Shown: one piece after another, positions 1 through 36,267 of the stretch | Layout of the letters: each line of letters begins with the position of its first letter | How positions within the stretch are numbered: position 1 is the stretch's first letter | IMG/VR virus record: IMGVR_UViG_3300042898_000748 | Coordinates: 1-36,267 of that record | Length of the DNA: 36,267 nucleotides | Strand: one strand, 5' to 3' | Origin: a virus | Position numbers and translations under genes: made by a program | Notes under the pieces: generated by a model | Database searches by the model: none | What the model was told of the DNA's origin: nothing | What the model saw: the letters and a program-made list of their open reading frames with translations, nothing else

Positions 1-846
1 TTTGGCTTGTTTGGTTGGCTTAGCGCGCCTAAACAATTCTGAATCCCAGTAGAGAGTAGCTAGGTAAGCGTTAGGCTCGCGGGCAATAATCTTGTCCATT
101 AGCTTCGGATAGAACTCGCCCATCTTTACAAGAACGCGACTTGTATCAATGCTAAAGAACTGACTAATTCTCATGTCTCGTTTATTACCACCTGTTTGAT
201 ACAGGTATTGGTAGACGATCGGATAGTTTAGGTTCTTATCGCGGATGTAGCGCCAGACATCAGTATCTTTCCAGTCGTAGATTGGAAATAACTTAGCGTC
301 GTTCTTAGACATACTTACTGCGTAAAGTCTCTGAACAGATTCTGCTGTCCGAAGTCCGACCATAGAGATTCCGTCTTTACAGATTCTTTCTAGGAATGTC
401 TGGTAAGTTTCTTCTCTGGTCTTTAGCTTTGGATGTTCTGTAATAGCAAACTCTGGCATCTTGCGAACCCAGTTATCTTTTGCCTTACGGTCCCAGCAGA
501 TAAAGCTCTCGTCATTAGTTAGCTGATTGAAACAGTTAAAGTGCTTGACCTCAATGCACCACCAGCGAAACTGAACGCCGATAAGCATAAACTTACTGCG
601 CCATTCTTTTACGATACCTTCGACATCATCAAAGACAGCTTCTTCGTCAATAAAATCAACGACTAGAAGGCTCTTATCAACTTCTCCGCTAAGGCATAGT
701 TCATAAACCAAGTTAGCTAAAGTAATTGAGTCCTTACCGCCACTAAGCGATAGGTAGACAGGTAGCTTATTTGCGAAAATGTTTTTGATGCGCTCGTTAG
801 CTGCGCTGACTACATCTTGCTCAAGTTCCCTTTGAACTAAGACCAT
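1..846 (-). CDS. PAPS reductase-like PP-loop protein (IbrA-like), N-terminal 282 codons; continues across the contig junction
   Basis: The frame opens with ATG at 846, overlapping the stop of the upstream ParB-like gene by 10 bases, and stays open to base 1. It resumes without a break at base 36101 and ends at 35814, giving a protein of 377 residues. Visible motifs are the PP-loop SGGKDS at residues 35-40, GLRTAESVQR at 164-173 and LFPIYDW at 186-192. All are typical of the adenylate-alpha-hydrolase fold shared by CysH, DndC and IbrA. The Cys-containing C-terminal tail of true CysH enzymes was not seen; cysteines occur at 97, 105 and 117. A ParB-like gene lies on each side, as in IbrA/IbrB pairs. 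A role in DNA modification, regulation or sulfur chemistry is inference only. Confidence 0.85.
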   Translation of the reverse strand, partial: MVLVQRELEQDVVSAANERIKNIFANKLPVYLSLSGGKDSITLANLVYELCLSGEVDKSLLVVDFIDEEAVFDDVEGIVKEWRSKFMLIGVQFRWWCIEVKHFNCFNQLTNDESFICWDRKAKDNWVRKMPEFAITEHPKLKTREETYQTFLERICKDGISMVGLRTAESVQRLYAVSMSKNDAKLFPIYDWKDTDVWRYIRDKNLNYPIVYQYLYQTGGNKRDMRISQFFSIDTSRVLVKMGEFYPKLMDKIIAREPNAYLATLYWDSELFRRAKPTKQAK

Positions 847-1406
847 ACCTTCTGCCCACAACTTTCGCAAACAGAGTATTGGTCTTTGCTTTCATTATTT
901 GTATCGTTATTCATTGACTTGATTTCGGCGTTTATCTTTTCAGATTGTGCTTTGACCTGTTCCCTAAAGGATTCATTTACAGTGCCATAGCTTTTGCCGA
1001 TTTCTTCTAGTTGCTTTGGAGGGGCAACAAGGCTTTTTAGAATCTCATCGTCAAATCCTGGGATGTCTAATTCATCCCGCAGATCGTAGATAAGTTCTTC
1101 GATAACTGAGTAATCGTCTGAACCAAGTGCAGCGATTTTATTATCAGCTAGAGTCAAACGCTTTTTAGAAAACTCGGATAGTCCGACTAACTGAATAGCG
1201 TCTGCATCTGGTTTACCAAGCTCGCGCAGGGCGGTCAATAAGCCATTACCAGCTAGAACAACATTATCTTCATCAATAATGAGCGGTCTAATCTGCCCAA
1301 ACATTTCAATGGACCTTTTGAGTTCACTGATCTGTAGCTGTGAGTGCTTGCGCGGATTCTTCTCTAGTAGCGTTAGCTCATCCAGCGCGACCTTGATAAT
1401 TTCCAT
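837..1406 (-). CDS. ParB/Srx-fold protein 1
   Basis: This 189-residue protein starts with an N-terminal ParB-like fold: NPRKH at residues 17-21, a helix ending in FGQIRPLII near 36-44, AGNGLLTAL at 52-60 in place of the usual GHxR-type motif, and LADNK at 86-90. The C-terminal part is charged and ends in a CxxC pair (CESCGQK), perhaps half of a zinc site. Phage proteins of this type are often annotated as ParB-like nucleases and lie beside methyltransferase or PAPS-reductase-like genes. The ATG directly follows the stop of the symporter gene, and the 3' end overlaps the next gene, so the three are probably translationally coupled. The His and Arg of the canonical motif are replaced by Asn and Leu, so nuclease activity is uncertain. 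Confidence 0.85.
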   Translation of the reverse strand: MEIIKVALDELTLLEKNPRKHSQLQISELKRSIEMFGQIRPLIIDEDNVVLAGNGLLTALRELGKPDADAIQLVGLSEFSKKRLTLADNKIAALGSDDYSVIEELIYDLRDELDIPGFDDEILKSLVAPPKQLEEIGKSYGTVNESFREQVKAQSEKINAEIKSMNNDTNNESKDQYSVCESCGQKVWS

Positions 1407-2810
1407 TTACTTTACCAGTTCCTTCTTTTTAGAATTGTTACTGGTAATTATCTGCGTAATTATGTAAGCCACAATACCTGCGATTGTCGCGGTAAATAGT
1501 GAGCCATAGAGTTTTACATCAGCTAGGTTGTTTAGATTTCCGTAAAGGAATACTGGGAATCCAGCTCCCATAGCTGTTGTTAATCCAGCGACTACTGCGT
1601 TTGCTTTTAGCTGTAGCTTAGGGAACGCAAGAGTTAGAACTGTAATGCTAAATGTGGAAGCTCTTAGAGTTCCATAAATCATAAACATAATTAGAACTGA
1701 GTTGCCCGGAATGTTTGCGATTAAAAGCGCTACAACTGCACCAACAAGGATTACTAGATGTTGCTTTTTCAAATCCTTCGTGTAGTCCGTAGTCAAGGAA
1801 CCAAGCGCAACTAGCTGAGAATCAACAGTAGATAGAAGTCCACTTAGAAGCATTAGCAAGAACGGTATTACTACCCAAACTGGGAAGATCGCCTGAATTA
1901 CTTCTAGGTTTACATAGCCAGCGTTAGCAACTTCAACGCCACTACCTGCTGCGATAAATCCAAACACAGACATTGATAATGGAACTATGGCAAACACAAG
2001 AGCTGCAAGTGCGAATGATTTAGCAATCTTTGACTTATCAACGGCAAAGACTCTCTGCCAGAATGATTGGTCTCCAATTGGTCCAGCAAAAAGACCAATA
2101 GCGGAAATAATTCCGAAGGTTACTGCGACTCCAATACCACTATCGGTAAACAGCCCATCAATGTTGTTTATTCCTGTGAGTCCAGCGACTAGAGTATCCC
2201 AGCCCTGAGTAGCGATTGCTACTGGAACAAATAGAGCGAGCGCACCCAAAATAAAAATCATTTGAATAGCGTCGGTAAGTAGAGATGCCTTTATGCCACC
2301 GCGATAGGTGTAAGCCATTGTCATAGCCATTAGCAAGATGCTACCAATCCAAAGTGGGATGCCTGTAATGATGCTCAATACAGTTCCACCAGCCAGAATG
2401 TTTACAGACATTGAGAGAGTTGAAAGTGTACCCATCTCAAACTGATAAAACTTCTGAACTTTGGTGTTGTAGGTCTTACCCATAAAAGCGGAAAGAGTAA
2501 AGCCGTCTGGGTATTTTTCACGAAGCCTTTTGGCGAACGGAATAATAAACAGAAGGGTGAGGATGTTTGGGACTAAGAACCAAAATAGTCCAACCCAGCC
2601 ATTGTTGTAAGCCTGAGTCGAACCTACGAAAAGTGCTGGTGCCCAAATCCAAGTAGCTGCGATAGAGAGAGCTGTCTGAACGGTGCCCTGCTTGCGATCT
2701 GCAACTGTGTAGTATTCAGCGGTTTGTTTTCCCTTTACAAATTTGTAAGAGATTGCGGTCATCAATAGTCCGTAAAGAACTAGAGTCGTTACTCCTAGAA
2801 TCATTTCCAT
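1407..2810 (-). CDS. Sodium:solute symporter (SSS/SSF family) carried by the phage
   Basis: This is a 467-residue, very hydrophobic protein with about 12-13 membrane segments, close to the usual length of the family. Family signatures are present: YRGGIKASLLTDAIQ at residues 169-183, DQSFWQRVFA at 247-256 (resembling the DQxxWQR segment of DUR3-type urea transporters) and LLSTVDSQL at 325-333, the helix carrying the Ser/Thr residues of the sodium site. No frameshift or stop is visible, so it looks functional. It should import a small solute with sodium at the host membrane. The substrate cannot be read from sequence; urea is only a guess from the DQxxWQR segment. It lies 17 bases after TerS and directly before the ParB-like gene. 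Transporters of this family are rare cargo for phages. Confidence 0.9.
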   Translation of the reverse strand: MEMILGVTTLVLYGLLMTAISYKFVKGKQTAEYYTVADRKQGTVQTALSIAATWIWAPALFVGSTQAYNNGWVGLFWFLVPNILTLLFIIPFAKRLREKYPDGFTLSAFMGKTYNTKVQKFYQFEMGTLSTLSMSVNILAGGTVLSIITGIPLWIGSILLMAMTMAYTYRGGIKASLLTDAIQMIFILGALALFVPVAIATQGWDTLVAGLTGINNIDGLFTDSGIGVAVTFGIISAIGLFAGPIGDQSFWQRVFAVDKSKIAKSFALAALVFAIVPLSMSVFGFIAAGSGVEVANAGYVNLEVIQAIFPVWVVIPFLLMLLSGLLSTVDSQLVALGSLTTDYTKDLKKQHLVILVGAVVALLIANIPGNSVLIMFMIYGTLRASTFSITVLTLAFPKLQLKANAVVAGLTTAMGAGFPVFLYGNLNNLADVKLYGSLFTATIAGIVAYIITQIITSNNSKKKELVK

Positions 2811-8469: not shown

Positions 8470-9316
8470 TTGAGTTTCCTTTCTTCTTGGCTTCTCGTAA
8501 ACATGTCTTGCAGGATACAATACTAGCGCCATGCTCACACTTAGGCGCGGGAGACGCGCTAGCTTTTAGATTCTCCATTTCAGCTAGTAGCTTTGCGGAA
8601 TCTTGGATTCTACGCTCTCGGTCCAATTCTGCTTTAGCTCTCTGAGCCTCTGCACGGCTCTCAGGAGTCTGTTCGCGCTCTGGGTAAGGCTCATCTAGCC
8701 ATCCCTCTCTGTTGAGCCATGTAGAAGCGTGTGGGATGTATTGAGGTTCGGGTAGGTTGGGGTCATTTGCTAATCGTAAAGCTGAATCAATAATCTGCTT
8801 TGACAAGTGATTTCTACTTTGATCGTCTAGCTCAATAAGGGCTTTGATAAAAGACTTCTCAGCTGCACCTCTACCCACCTTGCGCGGGTATCTATCCCAA
8901 AATAGTTCGAAGTTTTGAGCGTAATTATTCTTTAGTTCAGTCTTCTTATAATTGTTCTTCTTTAGGTGCTGGTTATCCGCTATCGGCTCATCCGTCGACG
9001 GATAATCCGTCCACGGTTGCTGGGGGTCTTTTGTAGTCCATAGGGTGCTAGCTAGGGTGCCATCTAGGTTGCGAAGTTGTTCTCGCTTTAGGTATCCAAT
9101 AGCTTCTAGTTCGCTAATCGCGCTGGCTATTGAGTCTCGACCATCTATGCCCTTGGATGCTAGGCGCTTGATTGATACTTCGTAACCGATACTGTGGCTC
9201 ATTAGCTCAGCTAGTAGCCCGCGAGCTTTGTAAGACAATCGTATGTCTCGAAGCCACGCGTTCGGAACTTGCGTAAAGTGTGAATCGAAGGAGTGTTCTC
9301 CCCTAATTATCGGCAT
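8462..9316 (-). CDS. Replication initiator-like protein with N-terminal winged helix
   Basis: This 284-residue protein starts at ATG 9316 with GAGG upstream. Residues 1-95 resemble the replication-protein helix-turn-helix seen in phage initiators: HFTQVPNAWLRDIRLSYKAR, then SIKRLASKGIDGRDSIASAI and the wing LEAIGYLKREQL. A low-complexity linker (about 96-135) encodes five-residue repeats. The C-terminal part, FELFWDRYPRKVGRGAAEKS followed by a helical domain and YIPHASTWLNREGW, is common in phage replication proteins. A Cys/His cluster (CEHGASIVSCKTC) ends the protein. No polymerase or helicase is encoded, so it probably loads host machinery. Confidence 0.75.
   Translation of the reverse strand: MPIIRGEHSFDSHFTQVPNAWLRDIRLSYKARGLLAELMSHSIGYEVSIKRLASKGIDGRDSIASAISELEAIGYLKREQLRNLDGTLASTLWTTKDPQQPWTDYPSTDEPIADNQHLKKNNYKKTELKNNYAQNFELFWDRYPRKVGRGAAEKSFIKALIELDDQSRNHLSKQIIDSALRLANDPNLPEPQYIPHASTWLNREGWLDEPYPEREQTPESRAEAQRAKAELDRERRIQDSAKLLAEMENLKASASPAPKCEHGASIVSCKTCLREAKKKGNSNG
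8920..9019. other. Candidate replication origin inside the initiator gene
   Basis: Three tandem 15-base units begin at 8975, 8990 and 9005, each starting ATCCG with CGG at positions 10-12. The central unit contains the perfect 14-base palindrome ATCCGTCGACGGAT. Next to them, at about 8920-8970, is a markedly A/T-rich stretch. Iterons beside an A/T-rich region within an initiator gene are the lambda O arrangement. The repeats also code for a five-residue repeat in the protein linker. Confidence 0.5.
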
Positions 9317-9653
9317 CTTTTTCCTCTCTTACTTTGGTGCGGTTGAACTCGTTGTCTATTAGGTAGTATTCCGCATCATGCGCGTAATAGACAGGCGTGT
9401 CTAAAGGTTCTTGCCAAGATTCTAGTTTCCACCCCCGCTCTTTAGCTAGGGATGCCCAGACAGCATCTGCTTCGATAAGCCAGTTGAACTTACTACAAAG
9501 AACTACTATGTTGCTTGGAACATCCCGCGTTTTTGAGCCACCCATTCCGCGATTCTTACGGTGCTGTGGAATTAGCGTGCTGTCCATCAAGCCACAATGA
9601 ACGCACTTATACAGATCGCGCTCTAGATACTTATCAAATTGTTTAGGTGTCAA
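9303..9653 (-). CDS. HNH-type nuclease-like protein
   Basis: This 116-residue protein has a TTG start at 9653 with GGAGAAGG upstream, overlapping the preceding stop as TTGA. The order CVHCG (residues 17-21), then QHRKNRGMGGS, then PSNIVVLC matches phage HNH proteins of the type CxxC ... HR..RGMGGS ... N..LC. The final HNH histidine is not clear, since FNWLIEAD follows, so activity may be altered. It sits between the initiator and recombination genes. Confidence 0.75.
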   Translation of the reverse strand: MTPKQFDKYLERDLYKCVHCGLMDSTLIPQHRKNRGMGGSKTRDVPSNIVVLCSKFNWLIEADAVWASLAKERGWKLESWQEPLDTPVYYAHDAEYYLIDNEFNRTKVREEKDADN

Positions 9654-9883
9654 AGCCTTCTCCGAGACTTATCTTCGAAGGGGTCATACTCTCTAGCTGG
9701 AACACTAAGACCTGACACCTGAAAACCGATAACATTCTCTACTTGCGCAGTTCCGCTAGTTGCCCCATCTTGCTCATCCTGAATCTCGCAGCGGTGATTC
9801 TTACGCCATTCTTTTACAAGCTTGACAGCTTCGGCTTCATCAGTTTTGATAGAAGCCCCACAAGAACAGCGTTCGTGAATCAT
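9650..9883 (-). CDS. Hypothetical small zinc-binding-like protein
   Basis: This 77-residue protein has an ATG at 9883 overlapping the preceding stop as ATGA. The N-terminus has CSCGASI followed by a helix (AVKLVKEWRKNHRC), a Cys/His arrangement that could bind one metal. The C-terminal half is polar and probably flexible, ending in KSRRRL. Function unknown. Confidence 0.7.
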   Translation of the reverse strand: MIHERCSCGASIKTDEAEAVKLVKEWRKNHRCEIQDEQDGATSGTAQVENVIGFQVSGLSVPAREYDPFEDKSRRRL

Positions 9884-10236
9884 CTGCTTGTTGCCATTGA
9901 CGATCTGTAAGTTAGTTCGACTAACCTAGCTTGGGTCTGAACACTCATTTGAGAAAGCTCTAGGTGCTTCATCTTTATCTTTACTCTGTTGAACTCTGCT
10001 TTAGATACAGCGTATTCAAGGGCTTCATTCTCTGTCATAATCTTGACTTTAGCATTCCGTTCGCCAGCAGTTCCGTCGGCGTTTAGGTAAGCAATAGCTT
10101 CCGCTTTGTCTAGCGCTAGCTCTAGTTGTAGCATTTTTAGTTCAGCTTGATACTGAACAGAAATACCCTTTTCGGCTTCTTGCCGTATCCCAACCAATTC
10201 ATCAATTATTTGGTCAGGAGTCACTATCCGATTCAT
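9880..10236 (-). CDS. Hypothetical helical protein of the recombination region
   Basis: This 118-residue protein is mostly alpha-helical, with an N-terminal DQIIDELVGIRQEAEKG and a long helical stretch to the C-terminus. It resembles in layout small phage proteins that lie next to ERF-type annealing proteins, but no named family was recognised. ATG 10236 lies inside the small frame 10214-10381. Confidence 0.7.
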   Translation of the reverse strand: MNRIVTPDQIIDELVGIRQEAEKGISVQYQAELKMLQLELALDKAEAIAYLNADGTAGERNAKVKIMTENEALEYAVSKAEFNRVKIKMKHLELSQMSVQTQARLVELTYRSSMATSR

Positions 10237-10381
10237 TCTCCAACTCCTCTATTATCTTTGCCAGTATTCTTTTTGCATCTTGCTCTTGGGGTTTAGAAGA
10301 CTCGCCCAAGTGCCTAAGAACTAAAATAAGTTCCGATACTTGAGCGAGCGCTTCTATGAGTATTTTTTTATTCGAAGGCAA
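10214..10381 (-). CDS. Possible small helical protein with TTG start
   Basis: An open frame of 55 residues fills the gap between the ERF gene and the next gene, beginning at TTG 10381 (14 bases inside ERF) and ending at 10214. The peptide is an amphipathic helix pair (ILIEALAQVSELILVLRHL and DAKRILAKIIEELENE). Overlap with both neighbours is normal in this genome. The start codon is weakly supported: only AAAGAC lies upstream. Confidence 0.45.
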   Translation of the reverse strand: MPSNKKILIEALAQVSELILVLRHLGESSKPQEQDAKRILAKIIEELENESDSDS

Positions 10382-10940
10382 CTGACTTGTCTTTTATCTT
10401 CTTTAGCACAACGGCAGGTGCTTTAGCCTTTTGCGCTTTGAGATACAAGTCCCTTAGATCGTCGATTGAGCTAACTTGTTCTAACACCGCTAACCAATCA
10501 ATTTTAGCTTCGGCTTTATCGCCTAGCTCATAGGTGTATGTATCTGGGTCTGGTTCATCTGTAGGTAGCGCCAACATCTGAATCAAGAAGGTTCTAAGCG
10601 CTACGCTCATAGCCTTTGCTGTTGCCTTGTCTCCAGAATCAAACGCTTCGGATGCTACAGTTCCTTTTACTGCATCCCCTTCAGAACCAACTATTGAAAA
10701 CTCAACAGTTAGTCGCACCACATTCAGCGAACCGCCGTTGCGGGCTGGCATAACATCATGTGTCTTCTCAATTATTACTGGGAGAATGAAACCGCCGTGC
10801 TTACGCAAGGCTGGACCAACAGCATTTAGAACGGCATCAATACCTCTAAAGTTGAACCCTTGTGATTCGTTCTTGTTGTTTTTGCCAACTCCCTGAACCT
10901 CTTGCATAACCGCAAGTATTACTTCTGTTGCTTTTGCCAT
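10368..10940 (-). CDS. erf: ERF-family single-strand annealing protein
   Basis: The 190-residue protein matches the ERF pattern: KNNKNESQGFNFRGIDAVLN at the N-terminus (the FRGIDAVLNAVGPALRKHG core), VVRLTVEFSIV, GTVASEAFDSGDKATAKAMS and the following hydrophobic helix FLIQMLALPTDEPD. ERF proteins anneal complementary single strands in phage recombination and in circularising or repairing the genome. It directly follows the YqaJ exonuclease gene, the usual two-component recombination pair. Confidence 0.9.
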   Translation of the reverse strand: MAKATEVILAVMQEVQGVGKNNKNESQGFNFRGIDAVLNAVGPALRKHGGFILPVIIEKTHDVMPARNGGSLNVVRLTVEFSIVGSEGDAVKGTVASEAFDSGDKATAKAMSVALRTFLIQMLALPTDEPDPDTYTYELGDKAEAKIDWLAVLEQVSSIDDLRDLYLKAQKAKAPAVVLKKIKDKSVAFE

Positions 10941-10941
10941 G

Positions 10942-11871
10942 TTACTTACCTCTCTTGTTTACTAGGAACGGTGGGTTGCCCCCGCGCCCCGCTTGTCTAC
11001 TTACCATGTGTTCAGTATAAACCAAACCGCGTTTAGCCTTACCCATAGCGCTTATAACACGCGATTTCATTTCATTTAGCTGGGCAGTAGCTTTATCCGC
11101 ATCCGCGACCGCATTGAAGTAATGCATCCCCAGATCGCCTAGCTCTACTTCGGTGTCTTCTATGTCTGGGTTGATTTTGCGAATAGTCTCTAGTGTCGCA
11201 TTAGCCCCATCAAAATCGGGCTGTGTGTCTTCTAGCAAGTGCTTGCGAAAAAGCTCTACTCTCGCAAGGTTCGCATCCTGCTCAAAGCTATCTGCGGTAA
11301 TTGCTATTTCTATGTATTTTGACCCGCTAAACAAAGCCACAATAGTCGCTTCTTGGAGACCAAATACTTGCAGATACCATTGCACCTGCGCCATGTAGGA
11401 CAGCGGGACTGTGTATTCGCCGTATCTATCTCCTTGCCAATCTTCCTCATACCTAGCTGTTTTCACTTCTAGGATTCCATAAGTGCCGTCGGCTTTTTGA
11501 TAAATAGCATCAGGGTTAGCTATCTGCCACTCACGATCTTTGTGTTTCCACATCCCAGTATCGCGAAATACTTTGTAGTCGGAATGGTTGTCTGCGAACT
11601 TATCTATAACTACAGGTTCTAACCTATTGCCCCACTCCATCGCTTCGTTCTGCTCAACAGGTTCTTCTACTCTGCGGGTCTTGCGCGCCCATAGCGACAT
11701 TGGTGAATCCCAACGAGAGTAGCCACAAATAATTCCAACATGGCTACCCCCAATTCCAACAGATCGCATGTCGTGCCACTCTTGACTATTTGATTTAGCG
11801 CGACTTATGCGACTCGCCGAACCAAACTCGTCAGGAAGTTCGGTTAATTGTGCTACAGTTTCTTTAGCCAT
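10942..11871 (-). CDS. YqaJ/lambda-exonuclease-like recombination nuclease
   Basis: The 309-residue protein has the YqaJ-type core: SQEWHDMRSVGIGGSHVGII (recognition of DNA end and start of fold), WGNRLEPVVIDKFAD, IANPDAIYQ supplying the acidic metal ligand, and GILEVKTARYEEDW with the catalytic E-x-K. MAQVQWYLQVFG follows, as in the family. It should resect 5' ends to give the ssDNA substrate for the ERF protein. ATG 11871 has AGAGAGGAAAC upstream. It is transcribed away from whiB. Confidence 0.9.
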   Translation of the reverse strand: MAKETVAQLTELPDEFGSASRISRAKSNSQEWHDMRSVGIGGSHVGIICGYSRWDSPMSLWARKTRRVEEPVEQNEAMEWGNRLEPVVIDKFADNHSDYKVFRDTGMWKHKDREWQIANPDAIYQKADGTYGILEVKTARYEEDWQGDRYGEYTVPLSYMAQVQWYLQVFGLQEATIVALFSGSKYIEIAITADSFEQDANLARVELFRKHLLEDTQPDFDGANATLETIRKINPDIEDTEVELGDLGMHYFNAVADADKATAQLNEMKSRVISAMGKAKRGLVYTEHMVSRQAGRGGNPPFLVNKRGK

Positions 11872-11929
11872 TGTTTCCTCTCTGGTCTCGATTCCCTCAA
11901 GTCTTTTGATTTGGGGGTTTCGTGTTTTT

Positions 11930-11945
11930 TATTGTATAGTCATCC
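11930..11945 (+). promoter_or_regulatory. Candidate promoter -10 region of whiB, also symmetric toward the exonuclease gene
   Basis: TATAGT at 11935-11940 lies about 35 bases upstream of the whiB start. The same bases read on the other strand give ACTATACAAT, a -10-like word toward the exonuclease gene. The 104 bases between the two genes are A/T-rich. No clear -35 box was found for either direction. Confidence 0.4.
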
Positions 11946-11975
11946 TACAAGAAGCATCCGACATGAGAGGTATTT

Positions 11976-12266
11976 ATGAGCTACTTAGCAACGCAACTTC
12001 ACACGCAACTGATAGAGACAGCGCAAGATTATGAAGTTGGGTGTAAGCAGTTTCCAGACGCTTACTTTATGAGCGCCGAAAATCACGAAGAACAAAGCCT
12101 AAATAAACTAGCTGTTTCTATCTGTAATGCGTGTCCAGTAAAAGATCTGTGCCTTGCTTACGCTCTCGAAGCTAAAGAACCTTATGGCATCTGGGGTGGC
12201 AAGACAACTTCTCAGCGTAAAAAACTAATTGCTAAAAATCTAAAGCTTTCCAAACAGCTTCTTTAG
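11976..12266 (+). CDS. whiB: WhiB-family iron-sulfur transcription regulator
   Basis: The only plus-strand gene, 96 residues. It has the four cysteines that hold the 4Fe-4S cluster, spaced C-X26-C-X2-C-X5-C (GCKQFP, then ICNACPVKDLC), and the GIWGG turn followed by a basic C-terminus (TTSQRKKLIAKNLKLSK) that contacts DNA. WhiB proteins are confined to actinobacteria and their phages and act by binding region 4 of the main sigma factor. GAGAGG lies five bases before ATG 11976. The 3' end overlaps the opposing gene by 27 bases. It may redirect host transcription during infection. Confidence 0.95.
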   Translation: MSYLATQLHTQLIETAQDYEVGCKQFPDAYFMSAENHEEQSLNKLAVSICNACPVKDLCLAYALEAKEPYGIWGGKTTSQRKKLIAKNLKLSKQLL

Positions 12267-12587
12267 AGTTTGACGCGTAGCTTTTGATTGCTCAGTCAAA
12301 GCTTGGTAAATGTAAATCTGTCTTTTGGTTTGCTCATCCCATTCTTCAAGAACATCGGGAATAGTTAGCTCTCCATCTTCTTCTGTCCATCTAGCTTTCT
12401 TGCTAGGTTCTTCTTTCATCAAAACGCTGACGATCGCATCAATCTGGTCTTCAATATGTCTGTATTCGAATTGAGTAGCGGTATCTAGCAAGTTAGCCAA
12501 AGGCTGACGTATTGCTTCAAAGTCCTCATCCCAGACCAAATTATCGTCTCGAAGTAATCGTATTGCTTTATCAATTTGTGTATTCAT
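12240..12587 (-). CDS. Hypothetical protein convergent with whiB
   Basis: This 115-residue acidic protein has ATG 12587 with AGGGAAC upstream. It is predicted helical throughout and has a Trp-rich acidic segment (KARWTEEDGELTIPDVLEEW) in the middle and a basic C-terminus (KATRQTLKKLFGKL). No family was recognised. It follows the sigma-like gene by six bases and its last 27 bases overlap the end of whiB on the other strand. Confidence 0.75.
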   Translation of the reverse strand: MNTQIDKAIRLLRDDNLVWDEDFEAIRQPLANLLDTATQFEYRHIEDQIDAIVSVLMKEEPSKKARWTEEDGELTIPDVLEEWDEQTKRQIYIYQALTEQSKATRQTLKKLFGKL

Positions 12588-12593
12588 CGTTCC

Positions 12594-13175
12594 CTAAATA
12601 GTTAGCGGGGGTCCACCTAGCTCAGATTGTAGCTTTTTGATTGCTCTATAAATCCTTGCTTGTGCTGCCCTGTCTGAAATGCCCAGCAATTCACCTATTT
12701 CTTTGAGACCTAGATTTAGCTGGTATCTCCATTTAAGAATAGTCTGATAATCAAGATTTAGCGACTGAAACGCAAAGTCTAAATCAGCAATTACAGCTAG
12801 GGCATTGGTTGAATCTTCACCCGAAGACAGCTCATGCCTAATAGCGATTGTCTGGGGTCTCTCTAGCCAGACATACGGCAAACCGCGTTCGATCTGCTCA
12901 AAGGTGTAACGGAAGTCTGTGTCTAGCGGTCTGTGGATGTTTGCAGCGGTCTCATTGGCGCAGTATCTAGCTGCGACTCGTTTGAGCGCCACAACTAGCT
13001 CACCTTCTCCACCAGCAAAACCACGCCAGTTGTAAACAATTTCATAGTGTTCTAGCATCCAAAGAAGTAGCTCACTATTCAGATCTTGGTAATCAATAGT
13101 TGCCCATTGACGGCTGAATCGTTTAGCTATGCCCAAGGCAATTCTAAACTCATCTGCTGTTATCTCTTTAACCAA
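12594..13175 (-). CDS. Sigma-70-like DNA-binding protein
   Basis: TTG 13175 is preferred because GGCGGAG lies four bases upstream; a TTG at 13190 adds five residues. The C-terminal region is a good region-4-type helix-turn-helix: FAFQSLNLDYQTILKWRYQL (start), LGLKEIGELLGIS (helix 2 and turn), DRAAQARIYRAIKKLQSELG (recognition helix). The N-terminal 110 residues (DLNSELLLWMLEHY, then GGEGELVVALKRVAARYC) fit a degraded region 2. It may direct RNA polymerase to phage promoters. Alternatively it is an HTH regulator without sigma activity. Confidence 0.65.
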   Translation of the reverse strand: MVKEITADEFRIALGIAKRFSRQWATIDYQDLNSELLLWMLEHYEIVYNWRGFAGGEGELVVALKRVAARYCANETAANIHRPLDTDFRYTFEQIERGLPYVWLERPQTIAIRHELSSGEDSTNALAVIADLDFAFQSLNLDYQTILKWRYQLNLGLKEIGELLGISDRAAQARIYRAIKKLQSELGGPPLTI

Positions 13176-14436
13176 GAAACTCCGCCTCAATCGGGGTCTT
13201 ACGCCAGAAGTGAGGTATTACACTCTCGACTATAGCTTCGCGGGTTGTAGTGCCACAGATAACCGCTGGGTCATTAGTAAGCCCCGCTGTTTGAGAAAAC
13301 CAAGCTGACGAGTCACACAGCGCGCCACCCTGCACCCAATAGGTATTACCAACAAGTTGCTGGAATCTAACATGGTGATAGTGACCAGTAAACAAAAGAT
13401 CTGAATCACCAATCGGGTCGCGTATTGCAGCCATTGACCTAAACCAGTTTGTAATCTTGCCCTCTACTCCAACACCGCCCCTTGCTATGTGTCCGTGTGT
13501 CAAGCCAACTATCCAGCCCAATACTTCTACGGTTAGGCTTAGGCGCTCGCGGGCAGGGAAGCTAAATGTAATGTTCTCAAACTTCTCAGATAATTGTAGG
13601 GCTTCAGCTACTTGCTCAACTACGGCAACATCGTCATTGTCGTGAAGTGTTGTGTAGGCTTTTCCGTTCTGCCTATTCTCACCATGGTTGCCAGGAACGA
13701 CCGCAACGTGAACTGGTAAACCTAGCTGACCAATCTTCATTAGATACTGCAGTAGTATCCTGCGAACTATTTTTACTTGGTCTCGACGATCAAGCTCAAC
13801 GCTAAATGTCTGCATCTCATACCAGCCACTAATGCCTTCTACCAAGTCTCCAGTAATCGGGACAAAGATTTGTGTTACTTCTTTTCCTGACTTCTTTAGA
13901 GTCTTGATGTCAGCAATAGCAAGATCGGCAAGCTGTAAAGCTTTGCTAACCATACCTTCGATACCGCTACCGTCAGGCTGACCCGCTTGGAGGTCAGTAA
14001 TCTGTTGCCAGTAAACTCGTTCAACAAGACCTGCAGTATTAGGGGTTTTAGCAGGGCTGTGCGCCTTCACAGCAGCCTGAATCAAGTCTTCTAGGTCTAT
14101 ACCCCCGACAGCACCCAAACGGCGTATGCGGGCTTTGAAGTAGTACATCCGCTTACTGCCACCTTCGCCGTCTCCTGAATCCCAAGCGCGAAGCTCAATC
14201 GGATACTTCGAATCAATCGTGTAATCTTCACGATTTACATTAGGGGGCAGTAGCTCGTCGAGAATCTGCGACCAATCTTCTGGTTGTTCTTCTCTTGGCT
14301 CAGTAACAATAAATCCGCCGTTACTGGATACCTCAACTCTTGGTTCCCAGCCCGACGGATGTTTCGCGCGTGTTCTCTTTACCTCTTTGGCGCTACCATC
14401 GTTACCGATTTGTAGCAACCTATCTAAGTCTTTCAA
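13168..14436 (-). CDS. Calcineurin-like metallophosphoesterase
   Basis: The C-terminal 300 residues carry the metallophosphoesterase motif set in order: QITDLQAGQ (first metal ligands), GDLVEG, VPGNHGENR, THGH and GHYHHVR. These are the di-metal site of the MPE/Mre11-type fold. The N-terminal 120 residues hold a basic linker and a possible HTH (ADAIGVRLKDLDRLLQ). Proteins of this kind are common in actinophages and may be DNA exonucleases or other phosphoesterases. TTG 14436 with GGAG five bases upstream is preferred; ATG 14478 would add 14 residues but lacks a ribosome site. Confidence 0.85.
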   Translation of the reverse strand: MKDLDRLLQIGNDGSAKEVKRTRAKHPSGWEPRVEVSSNGGFIVTEPREEQPEDWSQILDELLPPNVNREDYTIDSKYPIELRAWDSGDGEGGSKRMYYFKARIRRLGAVGGIDLEDLIQAAVKAHSPAKTPNTAGLVERVYWQQITDLQAGQPDGSGIEGMVSKALQLADLAIADIKTLKKSGKEVTQIFVPITGDLVEGISGWYEMQTFSVELDRRDQVKIVRRILLQYLMKIGQLGLPVHVAVVPGNHGENRQNGKAYTTLHDNDDVAVVEQVAEALQLSEKFENITFSFPARERLSLTVEVLGWIVGLTHGHIARGGVGVEGKITNWFRSMAAIRDPIGDSDLLFTGHYHHVRFQQLVGNTYWVQGGALCDSSAWFSQTAGLTNDPAVICGTTTREAIVESVIPHFWRKTPIEAEFLG

Positions 14437-35836: not shown

Positions 35837-36267
35837 CAGCCATGTTCCTTTCCCAGTCATTCTTGCGTAAGCTCAAAGTAATAGCTCTTAGAGTTCGTTC
35901 TTTAGGGTCTCCAGCAACTAATACTTCATAAAGTCTTTTGTAATCTTTTGGCAAGATGTCATTTTGGAACTTTATAAGAAGCTGTCTAACTCGAACGGTA
36001 TTCTTGATTCTTACTTTACCATCAAGATTCTCAGGATTAGCAATAAACTCAAGAACTTTAGTTTTCCAGTCAATCGTGTCATCAACCAATTCCTCACCAG
36101 CTTTGGCTTGTTTGGTTGGCTTTGCTCTCCTAAATAATTCAGAATCCCAGTAGAGAGTAGCTAGGTAAGCGTTAGGCTCGCGGGCAATAATCTTGTCCAT
36201 TAGCTTCGGATAGAACTCGCCCATCTTTACAAGAACGCGACTTGTATCAATGCTAAAGAACTGACTA
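35814..36267 (-). CDS. PAPS reductase-like protein, C-terminal part (same gene as 1-846)
   Basis: This is the last 151 codons of the gene that starts at 846. The first 55 codons here repeat the end of the copy at 1-166, and the unique part after residue 282 (AGEELVDDTIDWKTKVLEFI to DVDRRAI) adds 95 residues. An ATG at 36224 is an internal methionine (MGEFYPKL is residues 242-249 of the full protein), not the start. The C-terminal extension is helical with KNTVRVRQLLIKFQND, as in IbrA-like proteins, which are longer than CysH. Confidence 0.85.
   Translation of the reverse strand, partial: SQFFSIDTSRVLVKMGEFYPKLMDKIIAREPNAYLATLYWDSELFRRAKPTKQAKAGEELVDDTIDWKTKVLEFIANPENLDGKVRIKNTVRVRQLLIKFQNDILPKDYKRLYEVLVAGDPKERTLRAITLSLRKNDWERNMADVDRRAI
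36102..36267. repeat. Right copy of the 166-base terminal repeat (left copy at 1-166)
   Basis: Bases 36102-36267 match 1-166 except at left-copy positions 22, 25, 27, 34 and 40. The last 126 bases are identical. The repeat lies inside one gene, and its frame is continuous across the join, so it is the overlap of a circular or permuted genome, not a packaged terminal repeat. Confidence 0.9.

Follow-up and report, generated by a model that had tools for sequence, protein, structure and literature searches.

Positions 1 to 36,267 of the virus record IMGVR_UViG_3300042898_000748 (IMG/VR; 36,267 nucleotides in all, hereafter the window) carry, between the genes for the small (TerS) and large (TerL) terminase subunits, a cassette of four genes. 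They encode a sodium:solute symporter (SSS), two proteins of the ParB/Srx fold (ParB1 and ParB2) and, between these two, a PP-loop enzyme resembling PAPS reductase (PAPS1). We conclude that the four genes probably constitute a phage DNA-hypermodification cassette that includes an importer of its own, which would take up the modifying group or a precursor of it. The observations behind this conclusion are the gene content, a conserved gene order, a near-obligatory link to a gene for small-molecule supply, the repeated swap of one importer for another, and the other fillings of the same insertion site. An earlier interpretation of the window (the sequence-only reading) had proposed that the importer, the PP-loop enzyme and the ParB-fold proteins could act on DNA, on nucleotides or on a regulator of the host. 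Our results support that proposal, and the site fillings favor DNA over a host regulator.

Linkage was examined in scans that considered up to the best 80 matches each, and the counts describe the family around the window rather than all ParB-PAPS genes. A symporter-anchored search of IMG/VR found four contigs (L002-L005) with the gene order of the window, and a phage collection yielded a gut phage record (L006) carrying the symporter, a second PAPS-like PP-loop protein (PP2), ParB1 and PAPS1. An alignment-based search recovered symporter relatives on 162 viral and 106 genome contigs, the named genomes being mostly Clostridia and Treponema. In nearly all phage and prophage loci uncut by a contig end, the genes run SSS-(PP2)-ParB1-PAPS1-ParB2 on one strand, with a median gap between cassette genes of -10 nucleotides. 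A late-regulator-like gene precedes the cassette in 87 loci, with TerS and then TerL after it. Because the cassette order is found again in more than 100 loci, it lies far beyond chance. Anaerotruncus colihominis DSM 17241 has a complete SSS-PP2-ParB1-PAPS1-ParB2 locus, and Faecalibacterium phage FP_Taranis has a version in which gp35 is a short relative of the symporter.

A check suggested along with the sequence-only reading was whether the symporter always co-occurs with the ParB/PAPS genes. In a PAPS1-anchored search it was present in 50 of 53 loci having room for it; among the exceptions, an ABC permease and a binding lipoprotein stand in its place in L203, L207 and L214, others have the short symporter relative, and one clade has a cupin. 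Once such replacement supply genes were counted, co-occurrence was complete: with two further scans added and loci with less than 3.5 kb upstream set aside, 72 of 72 dereplicated PAPS1-anchored loci carry a supply gene (long SSS, 52; short SSS, 11; ABC, 8; cupin, 1). Over all loci together the supply gene is found in 117 of 119, ParB1 in 119 and ParB2 in 117. The two loci without an adjacent supply gene are L117, where the symporter has been displaced, and PJN03, which truly has none. In L117 (Eubacterium plexicaudatum, 9300-13700) an insertion of a few kb parts the symporter from the rest of the cassette and splits PP2. In L167 and L168 the symporter has been relocated behind ParB2, and the linkage is retained.

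The identity of the importer varies. In the ABC version (L203, L207, L214) the symporter's place is taken by two genes, for a permease and for a lipoprotein from the SsuA/TauA/NMT1 family of substrate binders; ABC permease and binding protein genes were seen on phage DNA in these three loci and in L231, L266, L325 and L329-L331. The short symporter proved related to the long SSS in a profile comparison from clean seeds (probability 98.9%, E = 4e-17). Well-supported branches of a PAPS1 tree (120 rows) call for at least four changes for ABC, at least four for short SSS and at least six for long SSS, and the three types alternate among near relatives inside a 15-member clade with full support. 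This is a quick tree with some uncertain joins; the alternation within the 15-member clade is independent of the deep branches. The tree indicates that non-homologous importers replaced one another repeatedly. Such swapping of unrelated importers is difficult to account for unless what is conserved is the uptake of a compound. It also bears on the idea that unrelated accessory genes gathered by chance in a permissive site. The site does accept insertions, and most relatives have nothing in it, but chance gathering is contradicted by the fixed order, the near-complete co-occurrence and the repeated substitution of importer for importer, and we find it barely credible.

The TerS-TerL site provides a further view of the cassette. 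HNH, TerS and TerL had been described as normally adjacent, and the empty arrangement, in which a P27-type TerS abuts TerL, was indeed found in 38 of 50 TerL relatives having both borders. Filled sites in relatives with 72-84% identical TerL begin with a ParB gene belonging to the same PHROGs, and a set of known DNA-modification genes comes next. In L385 these are a DpdA-type queuine transglycosylase (phrog_7068, E = 2e-85), QueC, QueD, QueE and FolE; in L342 and L343, Mom (PF25680, E = 4e-52 and 7e-45); in L348, a TET/JBP oxygenase (PF12851, E = 2.5e-12); and in L341, an ABC-ATPase/GNAT protein and a formyltransferase. At the equivalent place in a second lineage, Clostridia prophages, ParB stands with a C5 DNA methylase (L429, L432; PF00145, E about 1e-42), or, in a distant relative (L483), is fused to a methylase. 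The cassette of the window occupies a place held by DNA-modifying enzymes with a ParB partner of like kind in L341-L343, L348, L385, L428, L429 and L432. Every filled site examined in the window lineage (L341-L343, L348, L363, L385) has a second small-terminase-like gene, TerS2, which none of the 38 abutting sites has; this gene may move together with the cassette, or the packaging of modified DNA may require it.

Three neighborhoods merit separate mention. The oxygenase gene at L348:1332-2216 belongs to PHROG 6059, annotated as queuine tRNA-ribosyltransferase, yet it matches Pfam Tet_JBP, and the PHROG name is probably wrong. The combination of ParB, ABC-ATPase/GNAT (phrog_11143) and a formyltransferase-like gene recurs at the modification site in two distant phage lineages (L341:1130-3017 and L428:5370-7140) and is likely a further DNA-modification set. 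Away from the packaging genes of another TerL relative lies a distant ParB-glutaredoxin-PAPS-ParB set (L336:321-2165), whose glutaredoxin (PF00462, E = 1e-12) is a hint that thiols take part in its chemistry.

Because the site is otherwise filled by known DNA-modification sets, DNA is favored over a host regulator as the target. The competing idea is that the set modifies a regulator, a tRNA or RNA polymerase and so switches late genes, the importer supplying the group or a signal. Homologues annotated IbrA/IbrB, taken to be co-activators, and the place of the cassette right behind a late-regulator-like gene, with terS following, in the 87 loci noted above would suit such a switch. The other fillings of the site are DNA-modifying enzymes, however, and most relatives have no such set between TerS and TerL. 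We judge a regulatory role improbable.

PAPS1 (377 residues) is encoded on the minus strand at 846-1 and, past the circular join described below, at 36101-35814; it matches PF01507 (E = 1.5e-10) and carries the motif SGGKDS. This motif is present in 156 of 160 PAPS1 proteins, which identifies them as PP-loop ATP pyrophosphatases. PP-loop enzymes activate carbonyl or carboxyl groups by adenylating them. The C-terminal ECGxH motif of PAPS reductase (CysH), on the other hand, occurs in none of the 160, ruling out PAPS1 as a true PAPS reductase. Published annotations assign the PAPS-reductase genes of phages to host metabolism or list them as auxiliary metabolic genes (AMGs; PMC11318856, PMC10434257), and one could suppose that the set imports and assimilates a compound whose shortage limits phage production, DNA not being its target. 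Importers are swapped, as nutrient salvage might allow, and cellular relatives of the symporter adjoin asparagine-synthetase-like enzymes. Salvage is nonetheless rather unlikely, given the missing reductase signature, the two ParB-fold proteins that nearly always belong to the set and the DNA-modification sets that otherwise occupy the site. For the branch that includes the window, the evidence argues against the host-metabolism interpretation of phage PAPS-reductase genes.

A sulfur-based variant overlaps with the hypermodification cassette that we favor: a sulfur compound, for example a sulfonate, would be imported, and PAPS1 would install a thio-base or phosphorothioate. PAPS1 falls in the PAPS-reductase/DndC superfamily, and a defense-system search of the cassette returned weak DndC/SspD and methyltransferase-ParB matches and nothing stronger. 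Three PAPS1 cysteines are conserved at about 95, 96 and 92%, the curated families closest to the ABC binding protein are the SsuA/TauA sulfonate binders, and the distant L336 set includes glutaredoxin. But none of the three cysteines is kept by all members, the carriers closest to the symporter are those for urea and choline rather than for sulfonates, and the DndC model TIGR03183 scored 23.5 bits on the PAPS1 of L006, far under its cut-off of 290.4. We regard this variant as unlikely.

In some relatives PAPS1 has additional neighbors. PP2 matches PAPS_reduct in Pfam, and a class-II glutamine amidotransferase accompanies it in L089, L091, L096 and L004/L005. The pair was considered as a Gat-QueC equivalent, a candidate left unsupported because PP2 matches PAPS_reduct rather than QueC. 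The ParB-fold proteins of the window are ParB1 (1406-837, minus strand; 189 residues, with a CxxCG tail) and ParB2 (35860-35312, minus strand; 182 residues, with a DGFHR motif). ParB2 matches PF02195 (E = 8.5e-7) and phrog_2159 (E = 3e-65). ParB1 falls under the Pfam ParB_N cut-off (14.4 versus 26.3 bits) and was recognized via PHROGs (phrog_620, E = 1e-38; phrog_498, E = 2e-29), the second of these matches being to the ParB part of phage DNA methyltransferases.

The supply gene of the window encodes a 467-residue symporter (2810-1407, minus strand; phrog_20720, E = 2e-124). Its score against PF00474 (E = 6e-21) is 75.2 bits, above the cut-off of 22.8 and placing it in the family, and against TIGR00813 115.9 bits, under the cut-off of 184. 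The predicted structure (pLDDT 93.1) has an SSS/LeuT fold over the whole protein and best resembles CHT1 (Z = 44.5 over 450 residues, root-mean-square deviation 2.8), followed by SiaT (37.6) and DUR3 (37.4). In SSS transporters the Na2-site hydroxyls of transmembrane helix 8 are S364/S365 in vSGLT and S340/T341 in PutP. The symporter has S327 (conserved in 32 of 33) and T328 (33 of 33) at this position, matched by motif rather than by a bound-ion structure, and we take these to be its sodium-site residues.

Structure comparisons did not converge on one substrate, and we name none. The closest sequence to the symporter is DUR3, a urea carrier (E = 6e-28), while the closest fold is CHT1, a choline carrier, and the model of the ABC binding protein ties binders of bicarbonate/nitrate, taurine, sulfonate, formyl-aminopyrimidine and thiamin (Z = 22-24). 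In cells (L144, L146, L147 and L157, also L142, L145 and L152), relatives of the symporter immediately follow genes for an asparagine-synthetase-like protein and a roughly 330-residue zinc-ribbon protein, or adjoin another PP-loop protein. These neighborhoods are an independent hint that this symporter branch may work with PP-loop enzymes, and they possibly represent a related cellular pathway.

From these comparisons we infer a substrate taken from outside, DNA as the target, an adenylation chemistry, targeting roles for the ParB proteins and a protective purpose, which could fit together as follows. Late in infection the importer, whether SSS, short SSS or ABC, would raise the cell's supply of a small molecule. 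PAPS1 might adenylate the imported molecule, or a carbonyl of the DNA base, and then couple the two; in some relatives the second PP-loop enzyme and the class-II glutamine amidotransferase would prepare the group. ParB1 and ParB2, through their nucleotide-binding ParB/Srx fold, may target the reaction to phage DNA or switch it on just before packaging, and the modified DNA would be shielded from host nucleases. The more specific proposition, that an interchangeable importer feeds DNA modification with a group that the host does not make, so that modification depends on an outside compound, we put at somewhat short of an even chance.

Several observations weigh against a DNA-hypermodification cassette fed by its own importer. 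Homologues of the ParB/PAPS pair are annotated as IbrA/IbrB, co-activator of prophage gene expression, and distant relatives (in mycobacteriophage Gadjet, S. thermophilus IbrA/IbrB and PJN03) have ParB/PAPS genes without any importer. The matches of the symporter and binding protein (DUR3, choline, sulfonate, THI5) point to different ligands, and both the modified base and the substrate stand as inferences. No ATPase gene was seen among the neighbors examined of the ABC version, which would presumably borrow one from the host. Finally, one clade (L179, L199, L210, L298, L306-L309) has a cupin in place of an importer; this protein may produce the same compound, capture it or detect it.

The arrangement in the window itself is intact. 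Bases 1-166 and 36102-36267 are 97% identical, identifying the window as a circular phage genome cut inside PAPS1, with 36102-36267 a terminal copy of 1-166. The five mismatches between the copies fall within 19 nucleotides, are all synonymous in PAPS1, and look like strain variation caught at the assembly ends rather than error. PAPS1 and the gene order of the window are uninterrupted in L002, L004 and L005; with PAPS1 unbroken in relatives and the mismatches all synonymous, an assembly artifact at the join was ruled out. Over the join the minus-strand order is HNH, P27 TerS, SSS symporter, ParB1, PAPS1, ParB2, TerS2 and TerL, just as the sequence-only reading had it. That reading overestimated the insert at about 4.3 kb: the stretch from P27 to TerL is 4,019 nucleotides, within which SSS to ParB2 takes up 3.6 kb. 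It was correct in describing tight packing, as neighboring cassette genes overlap or abut, and late expression as a single unit would fit this packing and position.

The flanking genes are likewise on the minus strand. An HNH endonuclease (3945-3592; phrog_333, E = 1e-16; PF01844, E = 0.005, below cut-off) flanks the site, and the P27-type TerS (3370-2828; PF05119, E = 5.6e-8; phrog_83, E = 5e-21) forms its upstream border. Beyond ParB2 come TerS2, a second small-terminase/helix-turn-helix gene (35303-34917; phrog_4102, E = 1.6e-19), and TerL (34909-33401; PF03354, E = 7e-18), the downstream border. Elsewhere, the larger genes scanned are ordinary siphophage genes: Erf, a RecE-like exonuclease, a sigma-like factor, tape measure, portal and major head protein.

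These results turn genes labeled symporter, ParB and PAPS reductase, the last read as a sulfur AMG, into one conserved unit that ranges over phages and prophages of Clostridia and Treponema and, judging from IMG/VR contigs, unclassified environmental phages. If our interpretation is correct, this PP-loop/ParB enzyme system would be a new, uptake-fed kind of phage DNA hypermodification, a chemical disguise of DNA that ties phage resistance to host defenses to the surrounding chemistry. It would also assign a function to the ParB-PAPS genes, a large orphan family, and point to a new modified base that could be sought. Since cultured carriers exist, FP_Taranis and Anaerotruncus colihominis DSM 17241, the cassette is directly testable.

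Phage DNA hypermodification is already known as a kind, and ParB-PAPS genes have been annotated but left unexplained. In the literature searched, no paper joins a symporter, ParB and PAPS reductase in phages, and as far as that literature goes the near-obligatory, interchangeable importer is undescribed. The nearest annotated relatives are IbrA/IbrB and the phage ParB-PAPS-ParB genes (phrog_2302/424, phrog_620, phrog_2159), which share the PAPS-like and ParB pair. We know of no biochemical function for IbrA/IbrB-type genes. In FP_Taranis, gp37 and gp38 bear this annotation, with the short symporter-like gene two genes upstream, whereas IbrA of S. thermophilus, 26% identical, comes without an importer.

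ParB-fold and PP-loop proteins act together in Dnd and Dpd DNA modification (PMC10853773, PMC12839542). Dnd phosphorothioation resembles the cassette in pairing a PP-loop enzyme (DndC) with a ParB-superfamily partner (DndB), which there act on DNA (PMC10853773). The cassette differs in a DndC score far under the cut-off, in having no strict set of cysteines like the three that hold the 4Fe-4S cluster of DndC, in having an importer, and in having no cysteine desulfurase among its conserved neighbors. The Mom and ParB-methyltransferase sets share the site and the ParB first gene in TerL relatives, but they use another modifying enzyme and have no importer. SSS/SLC5 transporters (DUR3, CHT1, SiaT, PutP, PanF) have the fold, length and sodium-site hydroxyls of the phage symporter, and the phage subfamily is set apart by its own motifs SIAATWIWAP and GPFGDQxFWQR. 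The phage dpd/preQ0 cassettes use a PP-loop enzyme (QueC, Gat-QueC) and, in L385, occupy the same TerS-TerL site behind a like ParB first gene; in contrast, Pfam and PHROG scans of the window cassette proteins gave no match to DpdA or QueC/D/E. Homologues of the preQ0 importer YhhQ occur in some phages and are reported to correlate with no phage group (PMC6884629). The cassette described here differs from these in that every close relative of the window with room for it carries a supply gene.

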